Notes under the pieces: generated by a model | Database searches by the model: none | What the model was told of the DNA's origin: nothing | What the model saw: the letters and a program-made list of their open reading frames with translations, nothing else | Position numbers and translations under genes: made by a program | Part shown: positions 10,666 to 23,000 of the stretch, piece after piece | Numbering within the stretch: the first letter of the stretch is position 1 | How the letters are laid out: every line of letters begins with the position of its first letter | NCBI GenBank assembly: GCA_028282325.1 | Contig: JANQID010000106.1 | Location: forward strand, 1 to 43,352 | Length of the DNA stretch: 43,352 bases | Direction: 5' to 3' | Source: Chloroflexaceae bacterium | Lineage (GTDB): Bacteria > Chloroflexota > Chloroflexia > Chloroflexales > Chloroflexaceae

Positions 10666-13581
10666 GTGACAGCGCACATACATGACAGGGACGTCATAGC
10701 CCGATTGCTCGCATTGGCCGAAATTCATCCCCGTCGCGCGGTTCGCCTGACGCGTCGTTTGCTCCAGACTATCCCAACCGGCAATGTATTTGTTCATGCT
10801 CGCGTCAGTTATGTTCTCGGCTGGTCGCTGCTGCTCTGGGAGCGTTTTGATCAGGCGCGCCCCTTTCTCGATGCGGCGCAACACATATTCAATCGCCTGC
10901 AACGACCGTACGATGCACTGCGTTGCGAACACGGCCTTTTGCGCATCAACGCCGCCCAACTACGTCAGCCCGATCTGGAATCGGCCTTTACCGATCTAAC
11001 CCTTCGTTTTTCACAGATCGGCGCGGCGCGCGAGTCGCTGACCGTGCAGCTTGATCACGTCCAACTGGCGACCGCCCAAGGGCATTGGCAAGATGCCCAA
11101 AATATCTTGAGCGATATCGAACCGGCTGCTGCCGCAGCGGGCAATCTCACGTGGGCGCTATGGCTATGGCGTCGTGGTGTTGTCGCCATTTCCTCAAATG
11201 ATTTTGCCTACGCGGCGATGTTTTTGGAGAAGGCGGAGAATCAATTTGCCAAGCTGCATCAACGCTTGTACGTTGCTCGTTGTTGGGCCGACCAGGGCGT
11301 TCTGGCAACCCGACTGGAAAAACTCGACTATGCGCTTGAGTGCTACCAGCGTGCTGAACATGTATTTCGCCGTCTCGATTTACCCTTGCGTATGGCATTC
11401 TCAACACGCAATACCGGCCTTGTCTTTATGATGCGCGGCGAGTACGATCAGGCCCTCACGGCGACGCTCACAGCCCTCGAATATTTCACTGCTCTGGGTC
11501 GCGCCAGCGATGTTGGCGGCGCACAGCTCAATCTCGGAAACATCCATTTTTATACCGGGCGAATGGAAGCCGCGCTGGCGAATTATGTCCGTGCGGAAGC
11601 GCTGTGTGAAAGAACCGGGATGCTCGCCGAACGACTGCTCGCCCGACGCAATCGCGCGATGGTCTATCGCGCGCACGGCCGTCTCGAAGAGGCTCGTACA
11701 TTGCTGGACGATGTTGAACAACAGGCATGGGAGCTTAGATACCTCTCGGAAGTCGCCGAAGTGCGCAGTGTGAAGGCGGCGCTGCACGTTGACGAAGGCC
11801 AGAATGCTGATGCGATGCGACTGTATGCAGAAGCAAGTACTTTATTCGATCAGATCGCCAATGCGCCCGCGGCAGCCGAATGCCGAATGGAGCAGGGCTG
11901 GCTGGCATTGCGAAGCGATGCATTCGATCAGGCGCGTATGTTCTTCCAATCCGCCGAAGCAGATCTGCAACGACATCCGCATCATCATTGGCGCATCAGT
12001 TATGGGTTGGGAAAATGCGCTGAAGCCAGCCAGGACGTTCAAACTGCGCTGCATTTCTATGAACAAGCGAGCGCAATCATCGCCGGCTTACGTCTGCGCC
12101 TGGCAAGCGAAGAGGCTTCAAGCGCACTCTACAATCAGGCTGCACAGTTCTATACCGATGCCATTCACCTTGCCTCAGCATCCAACGCGCTGGAGAAACT
12201 ACTGGTTATCAGCGAGTCGCAACGTGGATTGACATTGCAGCGCCTGATGGCAATCGAACGCTACCGCCTTCCAGAATCCTGCCGAATAGAGCATAACGAA
12301 CTGCGGATCCGGATCGAAGCGGCGCTTGAACCTGAACAACCGACCGCCGCGCAGACCGCCGCCCTCGACGAACTGCTGGCTACATACAATGATCTGTTAC
12401 TGCGCGCCCGCCATCACGAAGGCATGCCGCCAGTAGAGCATTCGCGGCGTCTGGATCTTGCCAAGCTCCGTACTCAGCTCAACACAGCATTCCCCGACGG
12501 ATGGACCGCGCTTGTCTATGTGTTGCTCGATGGAGAACTGCTGATCATCACATACACCGACACAACCCTGGAACTTGATCGTACGCCAGTCGATGCACGA
12601 CTGCGCCAGTGCCTTGATCGCGCCTGTTTGCCGAGACATCGCCGATTTACGTATCTCAATCTACGCTATATGAGTGGACAGGAGCCGGCTCCCTGGAAAA
12701 CGTTGACCGAGCTATCCAAAAGGCTGATCCCTGAGCAGGTGCATAGCCGCTTGCACGACAACCATCGCTTGCTGATCGCACCAAGCGGTTTGCTCCATGC
12801 ATTGCCCTGGTCGGCGCTGCGCATAGATGACGCCTGGCTCTGTCAACGTGCAGTTGTGCAACTCGTGCCCGGCTTACTGCTCTGGTCGCACCTGGCGACA
12901 TCGCCGACGACGCATGAACACAACGCGCTCTTGCTAGGATGCAGCCAGTTTGGCGGTCGTGCGGCAGATTTGCCGAATGCTTTGCCATCCCTCGACCTTG
13001 TTCAACGTTACTGGCACGGCCCGACAATGCGCCTGGAAGACGCCGCAGCAACACGCAAAGCGCTGCTGACCGGGGCGACACAAGGCGTATGGCAGCGCTA
13101 TCGATTGCTCCATTTTGCCACGCATGCGCAATTTATCCCGAATCGGGGTATGCTTGCGCATATGAAGCTCGCTGATCGCGATCTGTTCATCGATGACATT
13201 TTGTGGCTAGGGCTGCGTGGCGCGCTGGTCGTTCTCGCCGCATGCGACGGCGCCGCTCATGAGGTATTGTCCGGCGAGGAAGTATTGAGTTTGAGCCGGG
13301 CTTTTCTGGCTGCCGGAGCCCGTGATGTGGTCGCCAGCCTCTGGAAGATGTACGATCATGCGATTCTGGAAATCCTGGAACCCTTCTATGCAGTGCTGGC
13401 GGCGGGCGAGGATGCGCCAACAGCGCTAGCTCACGCGCAGCGAATGATGATTACGCGCTACGAAAATGGCGACACCGCCGGCCAACCAATTTACTCACCG
13501 CTGGTGTGGGCCAGCCTGAGCGCGCTCGGCGCCGGAGCGACTTCGGTATCCGCACGAAACGAACAGGCTGAAGCGAAATAA
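10666..13581 (+). CDS. TPR-repeat CHAT-domain protease
   Basis: A 971-residue protein. Residues about 20-480 are tandem TPR-type helical repeats (for example ALECYQRAEHVFRRLDLPL, AQLNLGNIHFYTGRMEAALA), a protein-binding superhelix. A linker of about 150 residues follows, then the CHAT domain from about 640 to 960. The predicted catalytic His820 lies in HFATHA and Cys860 in LAACDGA, followed by the family's SLSRAFLAAGARDVVASLW stretch. The GTG start at 10666 is preceded by GAGGAGG with an 8-nt spacer. There is no membrane span. The architecture is that of the TPR-CHAT (separase/caspase-like) proteases, including the protease partner in type III-E CRISPR, but no CRISPR gene is nearby. It is divergent from the membrane CHAT operon and a strong hairpin follows it. 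Confidence 0.92.
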   Translation: MTAHIHDRDVIARLLALAEIHPRRAVRLTRRLLQTIPTGNVFVHARVSYVLGWSLLLWERFDQARPFLDAAQHIFNRLQRPYDALRCEHGLLRINAAQLRQPDLESAFTDLTLRFSQIGAARESLTVQLDHVQLATAQGHWQDAQNILSDIEPAAAAAGNLTWALWLWRRGVVAISSNDFAYAAMFLEKAENQFAKLHQRLYVARCWADQGVLATRLEKLDYALECYQRAEHVFRRLDLPLRMAFSTRNTGLVFMMRGEYDQALTATLTALEYFTALGRASDVGGAQLNLGNIHFYTGRMEAALANYVRAEALCERTGMLAERLLARRNRAMVYRAHGRLEEARTLLDDVEQQAWELRYLSEVAEVRSVKAALHVDEGQNADAMRLYAEASTLFDQIANAPAAAECRMEQGWLALRSDAFDQARMFFQSAEADLQRHPHHHWRISYGLGKCAEASQDVQTALHFYEQASAIIAGLRLRLASEEASSALYNQAAQFYTDAIHLASASNALEKLLVISESQRGLTLQRLMAIERYRLPESCRIEHNELRIRIEAALEPEQPTAAQTAALDELLATYNDLLLRARHHEGMPPVEHSRRLDLAKLRTQLNTAFPDGWTALVYVLLDGELLIITYTDTTLELDRTPVDARLRQCLDRACLPRHRRFTYLNLRYMSGQEPAPWKTLTELSKRLIPEQVHSRLHDNHRLLIAPSGLLHALPWSALRIDDAWLCQRAVVQLVPGLLLWSHLATSPTTHEHNALLLGCSQFGGRAADLPNALPSLDLVQRYWHGPTMRLEDAAATRKALLTGATQGVWQRYRLLHFATHAQFIPNRGMLAHMKLADRDLFIDDILWLGLRGALVVLAACDGAAHEVLSGEEVLSLSRAFLAAGARDVVASLWKMYDHAILEILEPFYAVLAAGEDAPTALAHAQRMMITRYENGDTAGQPIYSPLVWASLSALGAGATSVSARNEQAEAK

Positions 13582-13590
13582 CGACAAGCA

Positions 13591-13623
13591 AATGCGGCAG
13601 CCGTTTCTATTGGCTGCCGCATT
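13591..13623 (+). terminator. Strong hairpin between the TPR-CHAT gene and tRNA-Val
   Basis: A 12-bp perfect stem (13591-13602 with 13612-13623) with a 9-nt loop, placed 10 bp after the TPR-CHAT stop and 2 bp from the tRNA 3' end. It is suited to a bidirectional terminator, but neither strand has a proper U-tract. Confidence 0.6.
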
Positions 13624-13624
13624 C

Positions 13625-13701
13625 TGGTGGGCGATAGTGGACTCGAACCACTGACCTCGTCGGTGTGAACGACGCGCTCTAACCAACTGAGCTAATCGCC
13701 C
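13625..13701 (-). tRNA. tRNA-Val (anticodon CAC)
   Basis: The minus strand folds as a cloverleaf. The acceptor is GGGCGAT/ATCGCCC, the D arm is GCTCAGTTGGTTAGAGC, the anticodon stem is CGTCG/CGACG with loop TTCACAC (anticodon CAC, Val), and the T arm contains GGTTCGAGTCC. The discriminator A and the 3' CCA are encoded (13625-13628). Confidence 0.96.
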
Positions 13702-13714
13702 AAATGATTACGGG

Positions 13715-13743
13715 AGTATAGCATACCCTGTTGGCGTTTGCAA
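13715..13743 (-). promoter_or_regulatory. Promoter of tRNA-Val
   Basis: Minus-strand TTGCAA (13738-13743), a 17-bp spacer, and TATACT (13715-13720) with an extended TGC. The predicted start near 13708 gives a leader of about 6 nt. The -35 overlaps the outer arm of the hairpin that follows ugd. Confidence 0.6.
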
Positions 13744-13784
13744 CCACGCCCGCCAGCTTTCTCCGCTGGCGAGCGTGGTTGCAA
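13738..13784 (-). terminator. Long hairpin downstream of ugd
   Basis: A 19-bp stem with one A-C mismatch (13738-13757 with 13765-13784) around a 7-nt loop, beginning 31 bp after the ugd stop. It is very stable and ends with TTGCAA at both feet. It lacks a U-tract, and its downstream foot doubles as the tRNA-Val -35. Confidence 0.6.
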
Positions 13785-13814
13785 TGGATCGTTCGTCTGG
13801 TTGCGATGTTCAAG

Positions 13815-15170
13815 TTAGCACTGGGGAACCACTTGATCAAGCGGCAGAAGCTGCTGTTCGATCAAGATCGGCTGCGCTCCACGACCAACGCCCCAGTAGG
13901 TGAATCCGCGTTTGGCCATATCCTGCGGATCATAGATATTGCGCCCGTCAATGATAATAGGTTGACGCATCACACGCTGGATCTTATCCAGGTTGATCTG
14001 CTTGAACTCATTCCACTCAGTGATGATAAGCATCACATCGGCATCTTTCGCCGCATCGTAGGGCGTAGCGCAGAACGTGACTTCGGGCATAACCTCTTCG
14101 GCGCGCTCCATAGCTACGGGATCATACGCTTTGACCGTGGCCCCGCCTGATTGCAATGCTTGAATGATGTCAATCGACGGCGCTTCGCGCATATCATCTG
14201 TGTTGGGCTTGAACGACAACCCAAGAACGCCGATCACCTTGCCATCCAAATCCGATAGAAGCGTACGCACTTTATCGACAAAACGGCGGCGTGCATCCTG
14301 GTTGATATCCATCACGGCCTGCAACAACTGGGGGTGACAGCCAGCGCTCGCAGCCATATGCCGAAGCGCCAACACATCTTTCGGAAAACACGAACCGCCA
14401 TAACCAATGCCTGCGTCCAGAAAGTGCGGCCCAATGCGTTTGTCCGCACCCATACCGCGAGCAACTTCGCGCACATCGGCGCCCAGGCGTTCGCAAATCT
14501 GAGAGATCTCGTTGATAAAAGAAATACGTGCAGCTAAAAAGGCATTAGAAGCGTACTTGATCATTTCAGCGGTGCGCAGGTCGGTGATAATCACCATTGT
14601 ACCCAGCGGATCATGCAATGCGGCAACTTTCTCGGCAGCTTCGCGATCAGTCGAACCTAGCACAATGCGATCAGGATGGAAGAAATCACTTACGGCGCTG
14701 CCTTCGCGAAGGAACTCAGGATTCGAGACAATAGAGAAGGGAGCGCTGGTATGCGAATGCTCGGCGATAATCTGGCTTACTTTGTCGCCGGTGCCAACCG
14801 GGACAGTGCTCTTATCAATAATGACAATTGGCCCGGTGAGCGCACTGCCAATCCCGCGCGCTGCGGCCTCGACATAGCCAAGATCGGCGGCGCCATCGTC
14901 GCTCATCGGCGTTCCTACCGTGATGAAAGCAAAATCGGCGCCTTCAACAGCGATAGCATAGTCATCGGTAAACGAAAGGCGTTCTGCGCGCATATTGCGC
15001 TCCATCAGCTCTTCGAGCCCTGGCTCATAAATCGGTGATTTTCCGGAGCGCAGCAAATCAACCTTTTGCCTATCAATGTCCATGCACACGACGCGATTGC
15101 CAAGATCGGCAAAGCACACACCAGTGACGAGGCCGACATAGCCCGTTCCGATCACGCATATCTGTTTCAA
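13815..15170 (-). CDS. ugd: UDP-glucose 6-dehydrogenase
   Basis: Oxidises UDP-glucose to UDP-glucuronate with two NAD+, feeding polysaccharide and glycolipid synthesis. At 451 residues it has the usual UDP-glucose/GDP-mannose dehydrogenase layout. The Rossmann motif GTGYVG is at 8-13, the central helix contains Lys205 (AEMIKYASNAFLA), Glu154 lies in NPEFLREG, and the catalytic Cys261 is in GYGGSCFPKD. The C-terminal UDP-binding domain contains GLSFKPNTDDMREAPS. The start is a TTG at 15170, 6 nt after AGGAGG, giving MKQICVIGTGYVG; no better start is available. It is monocistronic, bounded by a long hairpin on the tRNA side and open intergenic DNA upstream. The neighbours do not suggest a specific polysaccharide locus. 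Confidence 0.97.
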   Translation of the reverse strand: MKQICVIGTGYVGLVTGVCFADLGNRVVCMDIDRQKVDLLRSGKSPIYEPGLEELMERNMRAERLSFTDDYAIAVEGADFAFITVGTPMSDDGAADLGYVEAAARGIGSALTGPIVIIDKSTVPVGTGDKVSQIIAEHSHTSAPFSIVSNPEFLREGSAVSDFFHPDRIVLGSTDREAAEKVAALHDPLGTMVIITDLRTAEMIKYASNAFLAARISFINEISQICERLGADVREVARGMGADKRIGPHFLDAGIGYGGSCFPKDVLALRHMAASAGCHPQLLQAVMDINQDARRRFVDKVRTLLSDLDGKVIGVLGLSFKPNTDDMREAPSIDIIQALQSGGATVKAYDPVAMERAEEVMPEVTFCATPYDAAKDADVMLIITEWNEFKQINLDKIQRVMRQPIIIDGRNIYDPQDMAKRGFTYWGVGRGAQPILIEQQLLPLDQVVPQC

Positions 15171-15529
15171 AACCGTCCTCCTTAGACGTACAGATGTATT
15201 GTGAACCCAGGCGCAGGTTCAAACATTCCAATGATGTGCAAGTGAACGTAACGATTGTACCCGATTTCTATTACGACGCTGTAGATGCAGATCTAACCTT
15301 CAACTAAATGCAGAGTATAAGGAGCAATAGTGACGATTTTATGAATGGCGCTACGCATACATATAAGCATATCAAGTTACTGTGCAATGCGTTCAAACGA
15401 TAAAGCAATTCTATCCAATCTATTACGTAACAAACCAACACTTGCCAGATGCGACGCGCCAGGCTTGACAAACGCCTCTATTAACGCGTTGCCGCACCTG
15501 AAAGGTTTACACGGCATGTACGACTGCTC
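15171..15529 (-). other. Intergenic DNA upstream of ugd
   Basis: About 360 bp with no supported gene. On the minus strand a TACAAT (15254-15259) could be the ugd -10, but the -35 is poor. Short open frames here lack ribosome sites and recognisable domains. The stretch ends at the MITE-like copy beginning at 15530. Confidence 0.4.
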
Positions 15530-15668
15530 TACCAAACGATGATGCGTATGCTGCATGCCACCCTTCCCCTTCGCTGCGCTCAGGGTCAGGGTCTCGATGG
15601 CCTTGGAGTCCGAGATTCTTCGCTGCGCTCAGAATGACCGCATGCGGTGTCTTCAATATTGTTTGGTA
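15530..15668 (-). repeat. MITE-like element copy 2 (complete, 139 bp)
   Basis: A complete element with TA|CCAAAC at the left (15530) and GTTTGG|TA at the right (15668). These are terminal inverted repeats with TA on both flanks, as expected of TA-targeting IS630/Tc1-type insertions. There is no coding sequence. The interior holds palindromic pieces of the type TTCGCTGCGCTCA. Compared with copies 1 and 5, an inner segment of about 33 bp bounded by ACCCT/AGGGT is inverted relative to the element ends. Confidence 0.75.
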
Positions 15669-15795
15669 TCTATTCATACACTGCCGTTCATCTAGAGGTT
15701 ATGAAAAATCGTTTATGCAGCACGCCTGATGAAGTCGAGCAGTCGTTCATTGCAGCGTTGAGAATATTGCAAGCCAGTGGCGAACCCTTTCACGC

Positions 15796-15838
15796 AAAAA
15801 CGCTTCCTTGCCAGTACAACATTGGCAAGGAAGCGTTT
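15796..15838 (-). terminator. Rho-independent terminator of the S1 gene
   Basis: A 15-16-bp perfect stem (15798-15813 with 15823-15838) around a 9-nt loop, followed on the minus strand by TTTTT (complement of 15796-15800). It lies 26 bp past the S1 stop and is a textbook terminator. Confidence 0.88.
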
Positions 15839-15863
15839 CTTTGCAGATGATTCGGGCCAAAAA

Positions 15864-17183
15864 CTACTCTGTAGGATTGGCCGCTTGCTCAGTCGGCGAT
15901 TCAGCCTGACTGGCATCGGTCGGCTCGGCAGTATCGATAGCGCTTTCACCGGATGGCTCAACAGTATCGTCCGCATCGGACATTATCGACGTCGCCTCAA
16001 CGCCATTACTGTTGTCAGCGCTGTGCTCCGCCTCAACGCCATCTGCATCCTGATTATCGCGGTCATCGTCGGACACGCGGCGAAGCGAGAGTCCCATACG
16101 CTGACGCTGCCGATCCAGGCTGATCACCTTCGCCGTGACCATCTGCCCCGGTTGGAGTACATCACGCGGCTGCGTCTGTGGATCAACATCCAGTTCGCTT
16201 GCGTGGATTAACCCCTCAACCGCCTCTTCGATCTGGACAAACGCCCCGAACGGCGTCACATTGGTGACTGGCCCGGTGATGAGTTGACCGAGGCTATAGC
16301 GCTGGTCGATCGTCTCCCAGGGATTCTCCTGCAATTGCCGCAAGCTCAAACCGATGCGCTCCCGCTCGCGGTCGATCTCAACCACCACGACCTTGACCTC
16401 CTGGCCAGGGGAGAGCACCTCGCGAGGGTGATTCACGCGCTGCCAGGATAGCTCGCTGATGTGAGCCAGACCATCGGCGCCACCAAGGTCGATGAACGCG
16501 CCAAAGTTGGTCAACTGATTAACGCGCCCATCCAGGATATCGCCGGGCTGCAACTCGGTGAGTAACCGCTGTTTCTGCGCTTTACGCCACTCCTGGGTCG
16601 CACTGCGCTCAGAGAGCACCAGGCGGTTACGCTCGCGATCAACCTCGATCACCTTCAATGGAATTTCCTGGTTGACCATACGCTGAAGCGCTTGCTGACG
16701 CTCCTCAGCAGCGGTGCGACCATGAAGCTGGGCCACCTGGGATGCAGGCACAAACCCACGGATGCGATTGAACTGAACCAGAAGACCGCCCTTGTTGAAG
16801 CCGATCACCTTGCATCGAACGATACCGCCGTCCTGATGCAGGCTGGCGGCGGTTTCCCAGTCTTTAGCGACCTGAACCATCGTCAGCGAGAGAATAAGAT
16901 CACCATCACGATTTTCAGGTTCTTGCACGTAAACCTGAATAGTGGCGCCCACTTCCAACGTGGTTGTGAGTTCCTCGCCCATAGCGCGCAGATCACTCGA
17001 GGGGATAATCCCTTCACGCTTGGTTCCGATAGATACCAGAACGCCATTCTCCTCGATTTGCATAATCAGCCCATCGCGCAATTCGCCGCGTTGCGGCCGG
17101 GCGTAATCATACGCATCAAGGAGCTGAGTCCAATCCAATTCTTCCCCATCTCGCGGAGTAACCTGATCCGGTTGCACCGTCAT
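15864..17183 (-). CDS. rpsA: 30S ribosomal protein S1 (four S1 domains)
   Basis: A single-stranded RNA-binding protein that helps mRNA reach the 30S subunit. Its 439 residues hold four S1/OB domains at about 32-102, 118-192, 213-282 and 299-368, the third and fourth with the strong [13 protein letters not shown] and [13 protein letters not shown] cores. A 70-residue acidic Asp/Glu/Ser/Thr tail follows. E. coli S1 has six domains; four-domain versions are common outside Proteobacteria. AGGAGG sits 9 nt before the ATG. Upstream is a leader of about 300 nt with a consensus promoter and an attenuator-like hairpin pair, so expression is probably controlled in the leader, consistent with S1 autoregulation known in other bacteria. 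A strong terminator follows. Confidence 0.93.
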
Positions 17184-17490
17184 TGTACAGAGCCTCCTAA
17201 GAAAACGATTTTGTGGTCATAGCGCCTACGTTGCTCAACCCATAAAAAAGCGCCACCTGTGCCGATGGTTAGGTAGGCGCAGAATCGACATACGCGACTG
17301 TTTGGATGTCTAAAAATATACGCTGAGTCCCTTAGTCTCTTTTTCCGTGGCGAATGTTTGTGACAGAGCGTATCATCCAGTGCCTACGAGAGTTCCGCGT
17401 AGATGGCTGGCTCTCCTTAACATATCGCCGTGACGACTATGGGAGTGGCTACCGTTGCGGATATACACAGCATATTTTACAATGGCGCTT
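17184..17490 (-). ncRNA. Structured S1 leader RNA (or independent small RNA)
   Basis: Transcription from the promoter at 17491-17519 would give about 300 nt of untranslated RNA before S1, or a free RNA of about 240 nt if it stops at 17244. Visible structure includes a GACAT/ATGTC stem and the terminator/alternative pairing at 17222-17280. No known RNA family is recognised by eye. Short open frames in it overlap the promoter or lack ribosome sites and are not credible genes. Confidence 0.5.
17222..17280 (-). promoter_or_regulatory. Attenuator: terminator and competing hairpin before S1
   Basis: On the minus strand the segment GCGCCTACCT (complement of 17271-17280) can pair with AGGTGGCGC (17250-17258), with one bulged base, followed by TTTTTT (17244-17249): an intrinsic terminator. 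The same GCGCCTAC can instead pair perfectly over 8 bp with GTAGGCGC (17222-17229) further downstream, which would break the terminator. Mutually exclusive folds of this kind indicate leader control. The trigger is unknown. Confidence 0.65.
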
Positions 17491-17519
17491 ATTATATCGA
17501 GGCCGTTCATGCTTGTCAA
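17491..17519 (-). promoter_or_regulatory. Consensus sigma-70 promoter upstream of S1
   Basis: Minus-strand TTGACA (17514-17519), exactly 17 bp, then TATAAT (17491-17496): a full consensus match. The predicted start is near 17484, about 300 nt upstream of the S1 start codon. Confidence 0.85.
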
Positions 17520-17598
17520 ATAGCTTTGTTTCGTCGAAATCGACGTGACAGTGTGCAACGAATTTCATACGTCGGCATTATAAGAAGTCTAGGCATAC

Positions 17599-17634
17599 AA
17601 AAACGAGCGCGGATTGCAGCATCCGTACTCGTTT
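17599..17634 (-). terminator. Rho-independent terminator after rpmG
   Basis: Stem AAACGAG/CTCGTTT (17601-17607 with 17628-17634) with an inner GGAT/ATCC pairing, followed on the minus strand by TTTTT. It lies 34 bp past the rpmG stop and closes the bchH-hydrolase-arsA-rpmG series. Confidence 0.8.
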
Positions 17635-17668
17635 CATTGTTCAAAACCTGCCGGAACGTTCGGCAATG

Positions 17669-17833
17669 TCACTTCGTCTCGCGATAGGTCACGTGCCGTC
17701 GAACAAGCGGATCGTATTTGCGCAACTCGATGCGGCTGGTGTTATTGCGCCGGTTCTTCTCCGTCGTATAGGTATGACCGCTTTCGGTGCTCTTGAGTTT
17801 AATAACAATGCGGTTCCCTTTTTTGCTGGCCAT
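17669..17833 (-). CDS. rpmG: 50S ribosomal protein L33
   Basis: A 54-residue L33 of the large ribosomal subunit: [13 protein letters not shown], a [17 protein letters not shown] block, and the typical C-terminus ending YRETK. It lacks the two CxxC pairs, so it is the zinc-independent (C-minus) form. AAGGAG lies about 12 nt upstream of the ATG at 17833, slightly long but the only candidate. The frame extends 19 codons further without family similarity. It starts 100 bp after the ArsA-type gene and is followed by a clear terminator. The usual rpmG-tRNA-secE-nusG neighbourhood is absent. Confidence 0.95.
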
Positions 17834-17933
17834 AGCGTCGTTCAGCTCCTTGAAAAGAAAGGCGCACGGCAAAAGCCGTGCAGCGCTCATAGGCTAATCG
17901 TCATTGTAGCATCGGTTTTGTGAGCTGGCAAGC

Positions 17934-19094
17934 TCAGCGTGTAAAAACGACCCGCAACGTCTCTTCTTCAAAGAACGCATCGTTCGCGCGCATCCGCGCC
18001 AGCGACTGGGGCAACACCACACGGTGGCGATGCCAACCCACCGAAATGATCAGCTCATCAGCGCTCTGAGCCAGATGAACCTGATCCTCGGCAACAAAAG
18101 GCAATGGAACGATTAGGTCGAAGCCATTCACGGTGCGCTCCAGGCGCTGCAAAGGCCCGCGATAGAAAAACTCACTCGGATCGCGATCGCCATAGAGCTG
18201 TTCTCCGAGCTGTTCAAGCAACACGGAACCGATGATTTCGCGCGGAAAGTGCGGCGCTTTGAAAATTGGCAGCGGATTAAACAGCTCTTCAACATGAGGT
18301 GCATAACCCTGCTGCATCTCCCGCCATGCCGCAAAGTGGCGATCGACATTCTCAGGCAAAATACGATTTACCACGACAGCATCTACACCATAGCCGAACA
18401 GACTCAGGTAGGTCAGGCTGCGTTGCGCTTCACGGATGACCATTTTCTCCAGGTTCATCACAACTCGTGCGCTACAAACATTCTGGTCAGTCAGAATGCG
18501 GCGCACGTCAACCAGCGCATCGATTGCTTCCTGAGCCGTGTTCAGCACATCATCTTCGACGATGGGCATATCGGTAACCCGTCGCACAACGGGGCGCACG
18601 ACCTTGAGGAGCGCACGGGCGACCGGCATCAGTCGCGCAATCCACCAGCGCATAATGTCGGGCAACGATAGCAAGCGCAATGTCTCACCGGTAGGTGCAG
18701 CATCAACCACCAGCACATCAAACTTGCCCTCGTCATAGTGGCGTTTGATCTGGAGCAAGCTGAACAACTCTTCGGTTCCTGGAACAACCGAGAGCTCGCC
18801 CTGGGCGATAGTCTCGACGCCCTGCCAGGCCAGCAACTCTGAAAGGTATTGCTGTACGTTGCCCCAGCTTGCTTCCAACTCGTAAAGAGCGTTAATCTCT
18901 TGCGCCCAGAGATTGGTCTGCACTTGCATCGGTTCTGCACGCAATTCGACGCCAAGGGAATCGCCGAGCGAGTGTGCAGCATCAGTACTGAGCACAATTG
19001 TCCGATAGCCTCGTTGAGCGCAACGCAATGCTGTTGCGGCTGCTACGCTCGTTTTTCCGACGCCACCTTTGCCGGTATAGAATAGAATGCGCAT
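17934..19094 (-). CDS. ArsA/Get3-family ATPase
   Basis: A 386-residue single-domain member of the deviant-Walker ATPases. It has Walker A GKGGVGKT (8-15), the STDAAHSLGDSLG switch I loop (about 36-48), and the VVDAAPTGETLRLL switch II. It lacks the Cys triad of arsenite-pump ArsA and has no duplicated half, so arsenite export is unlikely. A targeting or chaperone role in the style of Get3 is possible. The C-terminal 60 residues form a beta-rich extension (VHLAQSADELIISVGWHRHRVVLPQSL), seen in bacterial homologues. It is in series with bchH and a hydrolase; ArsA-like genes near bacteriochlorophyll genes are familiar in green bacteria, but the exact role there is not established. The ribosome site is weak. 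Confidence 0.88.
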   Translation of the reverse strand: MRILFYTGKGGVGKTSVAAATALRCAQRGYRTIVLSTDAAHSLGDSLGVELRAEPMQVQTNLWAQEINALYELEASWGNVQQYLSELLAWQGVETIAQGELSVVPGTEELFSLLQIKRHYDEGKFDVLVVDAAPTGETLRLLSLPDIMRWWIARLMPVARALLKVVRPVVRRVTDMPIVEDDVLNTAQEAIDALVDVRRILTDQNVCSARVVMNLEKMVIREAQRSLTYLSLFGYGVDAVVVNRILPENVDRHFAAWREMQQGYAPHVEELFNPLPIFKAPHFPREIIGSVLLEQLGEQLYGDRDPSEFFYRGPLQRLERTVNGFDLIVPLPFVAEDQVHLAQSADELIISVGWHRHRVVLPQSLARMRANDAFFEEETLRVVFTR

Positions 19095-19151
19095 AGGAGT
19101 TACTACTTCCAGTCAGTGCGATACGCTCTCTCTTAGAAGCAAGAGGCAATC

Positions 19152-19166
19152 TGCGCAATTTGCGCA
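19152..19166. promoter_or_regulatory. 15-bp palindrome between the hydrolase and ArsA genes
   Basis: TGCGCA-ATT-TGCGCA, a perfect 6-bp inverted repeat with a 3-bp centre, in the 156-bp gap upstream of the ArsA-type gene. Its size and symmetry fit a dimeric transcription-factor site. The regulator is unknown. Confidence 0.35.
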
Positions 19167-19250
19167 TACTTGAATTTGCCTTGCCATCTCACGCCACAAA
19201 AGAACGATTTGCAGAGTTGATGCCGCTGCGCCGCACATTGTCGCCTCCCG

Positions 19251-20003
19251 TCAGGCGCGGCGTAGCATTCCTTGCGTCGGCTCACGCTCGACTTCTTCAA
19301 CAATCCTCCACCAGGAATGTACGGTAGCTTCGTCCTGGCCATACCAGGGTTGGTCGGAATGGGGATTGTGGCGCAACCCTTCAAGGATTACATGCCGTGC
19401 GCCATCCAATAAAGCGCTCTCAATCGGTATTATGCCATCCCCCCACTGCGATCCGTTTCGTGTGAGCATTTCGTAACTTTGCCAAGCGCCTCGCTCCTGC
19501 GGCGTACCACTCTTCAAGCCATAGATCCCCTTGGAGATCACGGTGACGTAGCGGATAAATCGCCAGTAGGCGCCGGGATAATGCTGCTGCACGAACGCAA
19601 TCTGATTCAATCCGCCCTGGCGACCGGCGTTTGCCGTTGTGTGCGGCGTACCGAGCGTCACCAGGGTCGCGACTTTCTGAAATCCATTAAAAATAAGTTG
19701 CTTGCGCCCATAAGGCCGATCGCCCATATAGATTCTCGCAAGCACACCGCCCGCACTGTGCCCAACCAGCACCAGGCGTTCGACGCCAGTGTCGCGCAGC
19801 ACGTTCGACACCGCACGATCCAAAACTTCCAAGATCCCGCTGTAATCGTCGCTGATCGCCACGCCGAACCAGTCGAATAGCGCAATAGGAACGAGATCAA
19901 CAATCCGTCCGCTGATGGTCTGCAACGTTCGGCGCAGAGGCTGATATTGCTGCCAGTTCGCACCAAAACCGCCGACGATCAGAACAGGAAGCGAATTTGG
20001 CAT
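19251..20003 (-). CDS. Alpha/beta-hydrolase (lipase/esterase-like)
   Basis: A 250-residue alpha/beta-hydrolase. It begins with the family's first strand (PVLIVGGFGANWQQYQPL, the oxyanion-hole loop), has the nucleophile elbow GHSAGG with Ser83, then a TLGTPH strand, a likely acid Asp189 in WGDGIIPIES, and a His at 212 or 215 in LRHNPHSDQPW. The closest recognisable relatives are lipase-class-2/PGAP1-like esterases. No signal peptide is seen. It lies 95 bp downstream of bchH on the same strand and 156 bp upstream of the ArsA-type gene. Its conserved place next to bchH would suit a role in pigment or lipid ester metabolism, such as trimming bacteriochlorophyll esters, but that is only an inference. 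Confidence 0.85.
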   Translation of the reverse strand: MPNSLPVLIVGGFGANWQQYQPLRRTLQTISGRIVDLVPIALFDWFGVAISDDYSGILEVLDRAVSNVLRDTGVERLVLVGHSAGGVLARIYMGDRPYGRKQLIFNGFQKVATLVTLGTPHTTANAGRQGGLNQIAFVQQHYPGAYWRFIRYVTVISKGIYGLKSGTPQERGAWQSYEMLTRNGSQWGDGIIPIESALLDGARHVILEGLRHNPHSDQPWYGQDEATVHSWWRIVEEVEREPTQGMLRRA

Positions 20004-20098
20004 AAGGCTACCCGATATCGCGACACCGAATACTTGTTAGCACAAAATGTTCGATGCACATAGTATAACACTGATAGCCCTATCGTGTTCAACCGCAA

Positions 20099-23000
20099 CT
20101 ATGCGACGCCCTCCAGTTTATCTTCCAGGTCGGCATACAGTTCGCGCAGGCGGTCAAGCGTTTCATCGTCGGCTTCCCAGATGCCGCGATTGTTGGCTTC
20201 CAGCAAACGGCCAACGGCGTTGCGAGCAGCCTCAGGGTTGGCCGCCTCCAGGCGCTGGCGCATCGCGTCGTCGAGCACGAACGTTTCCGCCGCCTGGTCA
20301 TACACCCACTGATCGACTTCGCCGGTCGTTGCGCTCCAGCCCAGCATATAGGTAAAGCGATTCGCAATTTCCGCTGCACCGTTGTGACCGTGGCGCAGGA
20401 TGCCTTCGTACCACTTCGGATTGAGCATCTTGGTGCGGTATTCCATCCGCAGCACCTGGCCTAGCTCTTGCACCTTCGTCTCGGCGGTAAAGCTTTCGAC
20501 ATATTTGAGGCGTACGTCACGACCGCTGTGGCGTTCGGCGGCAGCCTTCAGCGCGCCGCTGTAGCCATAGTAGTGCTGCATATCAGTCAAGCCGTATTCG
20601 ACGCTGTCAATTTCTTGCGATACCTGGCCCACCGTGCCGAGGAGCGACTTGAGCACCTCCGGCTGGGCGCCGCCGCCCTTGGCGCCGCCAAAGGCATATG
20701 CATTTCGACGTACGAACATCTCTTCTAGATCCTGGCGCTCTTCCCAATTGCCGCTATCCACGGCATCATCAACGTAGGTGCCATAGGTGCCGGAGGCTTG
20801 CGAGAAGATGCGCGCCGTGGCCTGTTCAAAATCGACACCGGTCGCCATTAATGCGTTGACGTGCTTACGCACGTAGTTCATGTCCTCCGGCTCATCCACA
20901 GAGGCGGCGTCGCGCACGAGCTTGTCGAGCATATCCATTGCGCCCGCAAACGTGTCACGGAAAATACCGCTTGTCGTCATCAGTACGTCAATGCGCGGAC
21001 GATTCAGATCGGACAGAGGCGCGAGTTTGTAGCTCCAAATCTTGCCCTGTCCATCCGCCATAGGGTAGGCGCCCATCAGCCGCAGAATTGTGCCAATAGC
21101 CTCGCCCTTGGTCTTAATGGCATCGAGACCCCAGAGCACCTGGGCAATTGTTTCGGGATACGCGTCATCGTTCTCGGCGCGATACGCCGCAATCAAAGCG
21201 TCGGCAATGCGCGAACCGCGCTCGAACGCAGCATCGCTGGGAATGCGCATCGGATCGAGCGAGTGAATGTTGCGTCCTGTCGGCAGCACCGCCATCCCAT
21301 CGCGGATCAGGTCGCCGCCCGGCCCCGCCGGAACATAGCCGCCGCTCAGACCTTTGAGCAAGAAATCCATCTCCTGGGTGTTATCGCGCAGCGCGTTGAT
21401 CATCGAGCGGCCATGTTCGGTCATCGCTTTGAGTTCTTCTTGATGCGACACATGCGGCGTATTCCGCCCTGACTTGCGTTCATCGCCGGTCTGGCTCAAC
21501 GCCCCGGCCATCGCCGCATCGAGCGGCTGCTGTTCAAGCACGGCCCGCTGAACAAAAGCGACGCAGATACGATCCACAACATCGCGCAACTCAAGCGCCG
21601 GGACATCGCCGTGACGGGCCATTGACATCATCTCGGCGTAGGATCGAATGCCCTGCAATGTTGCACGCTGGCGGCCATTGTCAGCGCCGGGACTAGCCCC
21701 CAACTCGATGCTCTGATCGTTGCGCAGCATATTGATCACCAGGTCGCTCAAGCCCATCTCGCCACTGCGCGAAACCTTGAGCGTCTCGGTCAACAACGTT
21801 AGCTGATGATCATCCGGCGGCGCGTCGCCCAGCACGTGCAGGCTATCAACGATCATCGCTTGTTCCAGTTCGCGCAGGTAGGCATAGATTCGCGATGCGA
21901 ACGATTCAAACGTCTCGTCGGGTCGCTGAACGACATCCGCATCCATATTCAACAACTCCAGCTTCTGGCGGATCGCATCTTCGAGCGTGCCGGGTTCGCG
22001 GTTGCGCGACACAGCCTCGCGATATTCATCCAGCGTATCTTTCAACGCAATCAGCTCTTTGTACAAGCCGGCGCGTCCATACGGCGGAATGGCGTGGCCG
22101 ATAATCGTGCTGTAGCCGCGCCGTTTGGCAATATTCGCCTCTGCCGGGTTATTGATGGGATAGATATAGAAGTTGGGAATTTCACCCAGCAGAACATCGG
22201 GCCAACAATCGCCGCTGACGCCCAGTTGCAAGCCGGGCATCCACTCGGCAGTGCCGTGCATGCCGACATGCACGATGGAATGAGCGCCGAAGCCTTCAAC
22301 CAGCCAGCGATAGAACATAATGTACTGATGATGCGGCGTATTCTCGCGATCAAACAGCAGACGCATCGGGTCGCCGGGCATGCCGATCATCGGCTGTACG
22401 CCGATATAAACGTTGCCGAAACGCATCCCGCCGAGGAACACATCATCGCGTCCTACCGGCGCAAGCTCGCCGGGAAAAGCTCCCCAGCGTTCATCAATAC
22501 GTTGCTGATCCGTTGGTCGTACCCAATCGTGGAACTGCTGTCGCGAAACCGTGATCGGCGCGTGCGTTACCGGATAGTCGGGCGGAGCTTCGGTCTCATC
22601 GCGGCGGATGCTGTGCTCAATGGCGCGCACCAGTGTGGTGGGGTCGTCGGGCACATCGCCGACATCATACCCTTCGTCGCGCAGGCGTTTCAACAGGCGG
22701 AGGATGCTATTCGGAACGTCAAGGAGCGCGGCGGTGGCAGCGTTGCCCATACCAGGCGGGTAGTTGTAGACGACGATCGCCACTTTCTTGTCGCGGTTCG
22801 CCGCCTTGCGCAGCTTGATAAAACTGTTGGCCAGACGCGCCAGACGCTCGATACGGTCGGAGACCAGCACAATATCATTACCCTGGATGCCGCCAAGCGC
22901 CACAGGGGATACCGCGCCGTCCATCTCCGGCAGGCTGAAAGTGATAATGCTCTGCAGCGGACCGACGCCGTTCTTGCGCCAATCATCAACATCTTGCAGA

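Follow-up and report, generated by a model that had tools for sequence, protein, structure and literature searches.

We found that the gene for S1 paralog A of a Chloroflexaceae bacterium is preceded by a leader that is probably a cis-acting transcription attenuator of this gene, composed of an aptamer, an antiterminator and a terminator, with free S1 protein as the most likely ligand. In gamma-proteobacteria, S1 is known to control itself by repressing translation; if our reading is true, a distant phylum regulates an S1 gene through another RNA mechanism, namely transcription termination. The leader lies within a stretch of 43,352 nucleotides (the window), and was compared with leaders from a survey of named genomes plus 82 genomes of the order Chloroflexales, which provided 55 loci (L032-L086) and further leaders.

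Promoter, terminator and gene layout

The features of the leader and the basis of each one are the following:

17491-17519, minus strand: sigma-70-type promoter TTGACA-17-TATAAT (12/12 consensus)
17470-17484, minus strand: presumed 5' end of the RNA, (C)AUUGUAAAAnAU, conserved and presumed unpaired (alignments)
17457-17461, minus strand: 5' strand of P1, UCCGC, pairing with 17394-17398 (97.6% of cells paired, invariant)
17451-17453, minus strand: 5' strand of P2, GGU (helix of the P1-enforced MFE; pair types UG/CG/UA in the family)
17442-17445, minus strand: 5' strand of P3, CUCC (P1-enforced MFE, family alignment)
17421-17441, minus strand: P4, an apical hairpin that varies between leaders and in the window is CAUA-UCGU / GCGA-UAUG (constrained MFE)
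17413-17416, minus strand: 3' strand of P3, GGAG, Shine-Dalgarno-like with no start codon following (P1-enforced MFE, family alignment)
17405-17407, minus strand: 3' strand of P2, GCC (P1-enforced MFE, family alignment)
17394-17398, minus strand: 3' strand of P1, GCGGA (folding, family alignment)
17383-17403, minus strand: window-specific hairpin CUACG/CGUAG replacing the family P5, a would-be anti-antiterminator (pair probabilities about 0.8-0.9 in the pre-terminator transcript)
17380-17387, minus strand: putative antiterminator arm 1, GUAGGCAC, corresponding in relatives to P5's 3' strand with the bases that follow (the 8-mer pairing best with the terminator 5' arm)
17366-17379, minus strand: putative antiterminator extension, arm 1 (swap test)
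17281-17298, minus strand: putative antiterminator extension, arm 2 (swap test)
17250-17280, minus strand: terminator hairpin, whose 5' arm GCGCCUAC at 17280-17273 would double as antiterminator arm 2 (terminator scans)
17244-17249, minus strand: terminator U-tract TTTTTT (sequence)
17222-17229, minus strand: competing arm of the original prediction, GUAGGCGC, past the U-tract and not seen in relatives (sequence, comparison)
17193-17198, minus strand: canonical Shine-Dalgarno sequence AGGAGG (sequence)
15864-17183, minus strand: S1 paralog A, 439 aa, four S1 domains (four Pfam S1 stretches)

Three elements of the original prediction were recovered in this layout. The TTGACA-17-TATAAT promoter at 17519-17491 was re-read as a perfect 12/12 match, the sole such site within 13500-20200 (6.7 kb); the leader of about 300 nt extends from about 17484, a start site placed from the position of the -10 box, to the S1 ATG at 17183; and the terminator at 17280-17244, GCGCCTACC...GGTGGCGC-TTTTTT, has a folding energy of about -14 kcal/mol and a U-tract. 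A promoter-like site, defined by a relaxed pattern, was also present ahead of S1 in 54/55 related loci. The folding stability of the whole leader was not unusual for the window sequence alone (z = 0.36), and a leader peptide was discarded after a look by eye, which showed neither a conserved start codon after GGAG nor a conserved short ORF.

A bL33 gene is located directly upstream of the leader (17680-17836) and is followed by a terminator-like hairpin at 17610-17625. No L33 motif was seen upstream of S1 in the 55 relatives, whose forward frames were searched; the upstream neighbour differs, so that the element goes with the S1 gene.

Terminators were detected in 44 of 68 distinct paralog-A leaders, versus 59 of 680 shuffles. 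The first scan was blind to the long-stem terminators of Chloroflexus, which a wider scan picked up in 6/8 leaders (the one of L131 being doubtful), and a DNA search of relatives with the leader gave only short matches, yet these indicated a conserved terminator. When the leaders of the second S1 gene, paralog B, were scanned over fixed stretches of 110 nt, just one of the 16 had a terminator, and the attenuator was absent from 15/16.

Genes of the paralog-B type occur in most Chloroflexales genomes, including most of those with paralog A, and were the only S1 found in family f2. Paralog B matches ribosomal S1 models better than paralog A, since it scored above the NCBIfam cut-off of PRK06676 (397.7 vs 368), whereas paralog A was below the cut-offs of both PRK06676 (341.2 vs 368) and PRK06299.1-2 (343 vs 524). 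The paralog B of the genome to which the window belongs (G000:C135:8066-9322, L211:1567-2823) encodes 418 aa, is about 45% identical, and has a short leader and its own promoter.

The structured element P1-P5 and its distribution

The leader contains an element of about 100 nt, P1-P5, with AUUGUAAAAC ahead of it at what is presumed to be the start of the RNA. The core common to the leaders of Chloroflexaceae and some Roseiflexaceae consists of AUCCGC, GG, CUCC, GGAG(AGCC)AGCC, GCGGAGCC and GUAGGCGCC, with AUUGUAAAACAUAG at its presumed 5' end in Chloroflexaceae, and in the alignment the bases outside the helices were nearly invariant. When P1 (UCCGC/GCGGA) was enforced, the common fold comprised P2 (GGY/RCC), P3 (CUCC/GGAG, with the variants CUCUUC/GGAGAG, ACCUUC/GGGGGU and CUUCC/GGGAG in relatives), a variable P4, and P5 (GCCU/AGGC) beside P1. 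The unconstrained MFE contained P1 in 35/40 segments, which had been cut at P1, and these 40 aptamer segments had a mean z of -1.07, with z below -1 in 19 of them.

Pairing on alignment A5 reached 93.4% of cells, versus 88.3% after shuffling and 33-51% when the partners were slid, and two-sided changes were found in 25 cells versus 5.8 in shuffles (0/500 shuffles had as many), counts that lean toward the structure because A5 was fitted to it. Compensatory changes occurred in P3-P5, and in P4 at all three family pairs. P1 was invariant, so covariation neither supports nor opposes it, and it was broken in three Chloroploca leaders (L032, L036 and L056). Plain MAFFT alignments gave RNAalifold nothing informative apart from P1 and P5, and misalignment weakened the hand-anchored counts for P2-P4 in alignment A1; model R2, built from 15 well-aligned leaders, was used instead. 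A pseudoknot seen by eye in the window (CCAG/CUGG plus CUACG/CGUAG, enclosing GCGGA) was dropped, as it was not general.

Model R1, representing the core, matched 42 of the 82 Chloroflexales genomes at E<=0.002, most of these matches belonging to its training set, with one site each and always directly upstream of paralog A. By family, the matches were 33/41 in f1, 9/26 in f4, 0/9 in f3 and 0/6 in f2, and weaker ones (two in G060 and a second site in G022) look like chance. Among 301 sampled genomes of the phylum there were 20 R1 matches, all in Chloroflexales. Of 49 sources, R2 matched 34, among them 19 on which it had not been trained, Chloroflexus and Roseiflexus included; every match was at the S1 leader and no other was found in the 49 sources. 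The 15 sources with no R2 match include L047, L049, L079, L131 and L143, all matched by R1. Searched with the covariance models of Rfam 15 at gathering and permissive thresholds, neither the window leader (up to E = 5) nor the leaders of 10 relatives gave a match.

The element therefore has features sought in r-leaders: a conserved secondary structure with covariation, P1 itself being invariant; an expression platform, the terminator of 44/68 leaders, which is not found in Roseiflexus; and a position upstream of an S1-domain gene in 42/42 R1 matches (E<=0.002), with paralog A below the NCBIfam S1 cut-offs. As the terminator scan found no U-tract terminator in the Roseiflexus leaders, which keep the aptamer, their output must differ. 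This last observation, together with the conservation of P1 and of the 5' end as sequence with no covariation, is consistent with a constitutive leader, in which the conserved part would be a promoter or DNA-level signal or an mRNA stabiliser and the terminator would set a fixed level; we consider such a leader improbable, because of the compensatory changes in P3-P5 and of the paired replacement of the antiterminator and terminator arms in Chloroflexus described below.

The original prediction had also offered a small RNA of about 240 nt. A strong promoter, a strong terminator and a conserved 5' sequence would suit a promoter yielding mainly a terminated, trans-acting RNA of this length, with S1 expressed by read-through. 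The same gene, however, always lies directly downstream of the element, which disfavours a free-standing form, and a simple small RNA offers no obvious reason for a conserved segment complementary to the terminator arm; we judge this explanation highly improbable, the terminated RNA being more probably a by-product of attenuation.

Pairings that compete with the terminator

The last segment of the element, GUAGGCRC (17387-17380 in the window), gave the best pairing with the terminator 5' arm in 15 of the 21 leaders having both aptamer and terminator, about 160-190 8-mers being compared per leader, and was also the best 8-mer within the window leader; in 6/21 another 8-mer paired better with the arm. 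In Chloroflexus, P5 has GGCUCGCGC as its 3' strand, while the terminator arm reads GCGCGACC, and this pairing was the best of all 9-mers in 4/8 leaders. The four are closely related, so that the paired change of both arms is one event; the antiterminator pairing was not shown in the remaining 4/8. Mutually exclusive antiterminator and terminator sharing one arm, as in the rplJL type of leader, are thus predicted in 15/21 leaders plus 4/8 of Chloroflexus.

Covariation in the leaders of relatives, a check put forward with the original prediction, was partly observed. The extension arms of the upstream pairing covaried in the partner-swap test (p = 0.003 with 21 leaders, 0.015 with 14 representatives), but the 8-bp core alone did not do so significantly (p = 0.14 and 0.40). 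Other set-ups were weaker (p = 0.03/0.24 when the window terminator was misplaced; 0.011/0.13/0.15), the early swap tests having used wrong or over-long segments. In the window, L047 and L079 the 5' strand of P5 is lost but GUAGGC, complementary to the terminator, is retained, which suggests that selection acts on the pairing of GUAGGC to the terminator.

For the pre-terminator transcript of the window, the computed probabilities of the antiterminator and of P1 were 0.0, the antiterminator fold was 1.3 kcal/mol above the optimum (-55.0 vs -56.3 kcal/mol), and an equally good upstream 8-mer appeared in 114/500 shuffles. The case for the putative upstream switch is comparative, and the energy of the window alone does not favour it. 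The window extension arm at 17366-17379 can also pair with the nearer 17318-17325 (AUACGC/GCGUAU), in a competing hairpin.

The original prediction had placed the competitor downstream. The complementarity between GTAGGCGC at 17229-17222 and GCGCCTAC at 17280-17273, the first eight bases of the terminator, is real (8/8) and, in the single sequence of the window, unlikely to be due to chance, because, when the 60 nt separating the U-tract from the ATG were shuffled by dinucleotides, only 14 of 5000 shuffles equalled it; moreover, in the window this pairing is stronger than that of the upstream 8-mer (-14.8 vs -10.8 kcal/mol). The arm at 17222-17229 is nevertheless transcribed after RNA polymerase passes the U-tract and so cannot prevent termination, and no 8-bp match of this kind was found in the 13 relatives compared; the conserved competitor lies upstream, at 17387-17380. 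We therefore regard it as hardly credible that this pairing, private to the window, is the switch, although it may reshape the read-through mRNA. Some relatives, for example L080, L033 and L049, have other partial downstream pairings of similar energy, which in L033 and L049 fall in the Shine-Dalgarno region.

Proposed attenuation, its ligand and related leaders

Conservation, restriction to one gene, structure, terminator and competing pairing are observations on the sequences; from them we infer that the RNA switches, as well as the direction of control and the ligand, according to the following scheme. The nascent RNA would start with AUUGUAAAAC and fold the aptamer, with P1 (UCCGC/GCGGA), P2, P3 (CUCC/GGAG), P4 and P5 (GCCU/AGGC). 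With no ligand, the 3' strand of P5 and the following bases (GUAGGCGC plus the extension) would capture the terminator 5' arm GCGCCUAC, the terminator would be blocked and S1 transcribed. A ligand holding the aptamer with P5 closed, or in the window the CUACG/CGUAG hairpin, would let the terminator form and end transcription about 240 nt into the transcript; with free S1 protein as the most likely ligand, this would make a negative-feedback loop. As for the new attenuation element in Chloroflexota of the original prediction, attenuation of the S1 gene is very probable and the leader has no Rfam match, with the amendments that the competitor lies upstream (17387-17380) and that paralog A is below the NCBIfam S1 cut-offs.

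S1 is usually regarded as an RNA unwinder of low specificity. That it recognises its own nascent leader, an undescribed structured RNA, and forces termination, thereby keeping one of the two S1 isoforms under feedback control, is a possibility that we put forward tentatively. If true, the leader would be a compact RNA for asking how S1 recognises a specific fold, and would point to a division of labour between the two S1 paralogs in Chloroflexales, the second being constitutive-looking. The same attenuator could respond to another ligand (paralog B in cross-regulation, another protein or a small molecule): paralog B co-occurs in most paralog-A genomes and passes PRK06676 where paralog A fails (397.7 and 341.2 vs 368), and the aptamer is an elaborate one, in which bases outside the helices hardly vary. 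This seems to us rather unlikely. Riboswitches for metabolites usually govern several genes, and the element sits before one gene only; for this reason paralog A is favoured as the ligand, following the available text of PMC7247131, which names an r-protein as ligand when the leader sits solely upstream of the gene of that r-protein.

In the parts of PMC4538822 available, the L10(L12)4 protein complex stabilises an anti-antiterminator in the B. subtilis rplJL leader, followed by an antiterminator and an intrinsic terminator. The S1 leader has the same order of elements in a ribosomal-protein leader, and by this analogy P5, or its substitute in the window, is proposed to be the anti-antiterminator; stabilisation by protein is shown for rplJL and proposed here. 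The two differ in gene, lineage and presumed ligand, binding of S1 to its leader being a prediction, and the rplJL leader has a leader peptide, of which no conserved counterpart was seen in the S1 leader. The rpsA operator of E. coli and other gamma-proteobacteria, as described in the available portion of PMC10931766, acts by translational autoregulation and has no canonical Shine-Dalgarno sequence. It shares with the present leader an S1-type gene, an AU-rich single-stranded part and autoregulation, established for rpsA and proposed here, but the latter has a canonical AGGAGG at 17198-17193 and an upstream terminator. The leaders of Eckert and Weinberg (2020) are likewise lineage-restricted structured RNAs before one r-protein gene only; in the text of that article as available (PMC7247131), none of the 20 r-leaders of Table 1 is for S1 and Chloroflexota are not named. 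No S1 leader in Chloroflexota was found in the accessible text of the literature searched, mostly outside subscription papers (including PMC7247131, PMC10931766, PMC11109978, PMC2864571 and PMC2965389). The kind of element, a ribosomal leader with attenuation, is known; its combination of target and lineage was not found in that literature.

Mimicry of an rRNA site was rejected as a general feature, because in 6/8 comparisons with 16S rRNA no shared stretch was longer than chance. Two Chloroflexus leaders share 11 nt with 16S rRNA (4 and 7 of 100 shuffles had stretches as long), and UCACCUCC of the 16S tail occurs in 5/40 leaders, all Roseiflexus-type.

Several S1-A leaders depart from the common arrangement. 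Those of other Roseiflexaceae (L073-L078 and L082) have no aptamer and carry a strong terminator at most about 50 nt from the -10 box, which a competing GCCA/UGGC hairpin seems to precede immediately; this would be a different attenuator. Leaders of family f3 (L162-L168 and L173) have the terminator and no aptamer, and in the Viridilinea leaders L052 and L053 the aptamer seems to lack its 3' half, from GGAG to GUAGGC, through loss, while the terminator is kept. L033, L037 and L038 show an additional U-tract right after P5, which could be a second, earlier terminator.
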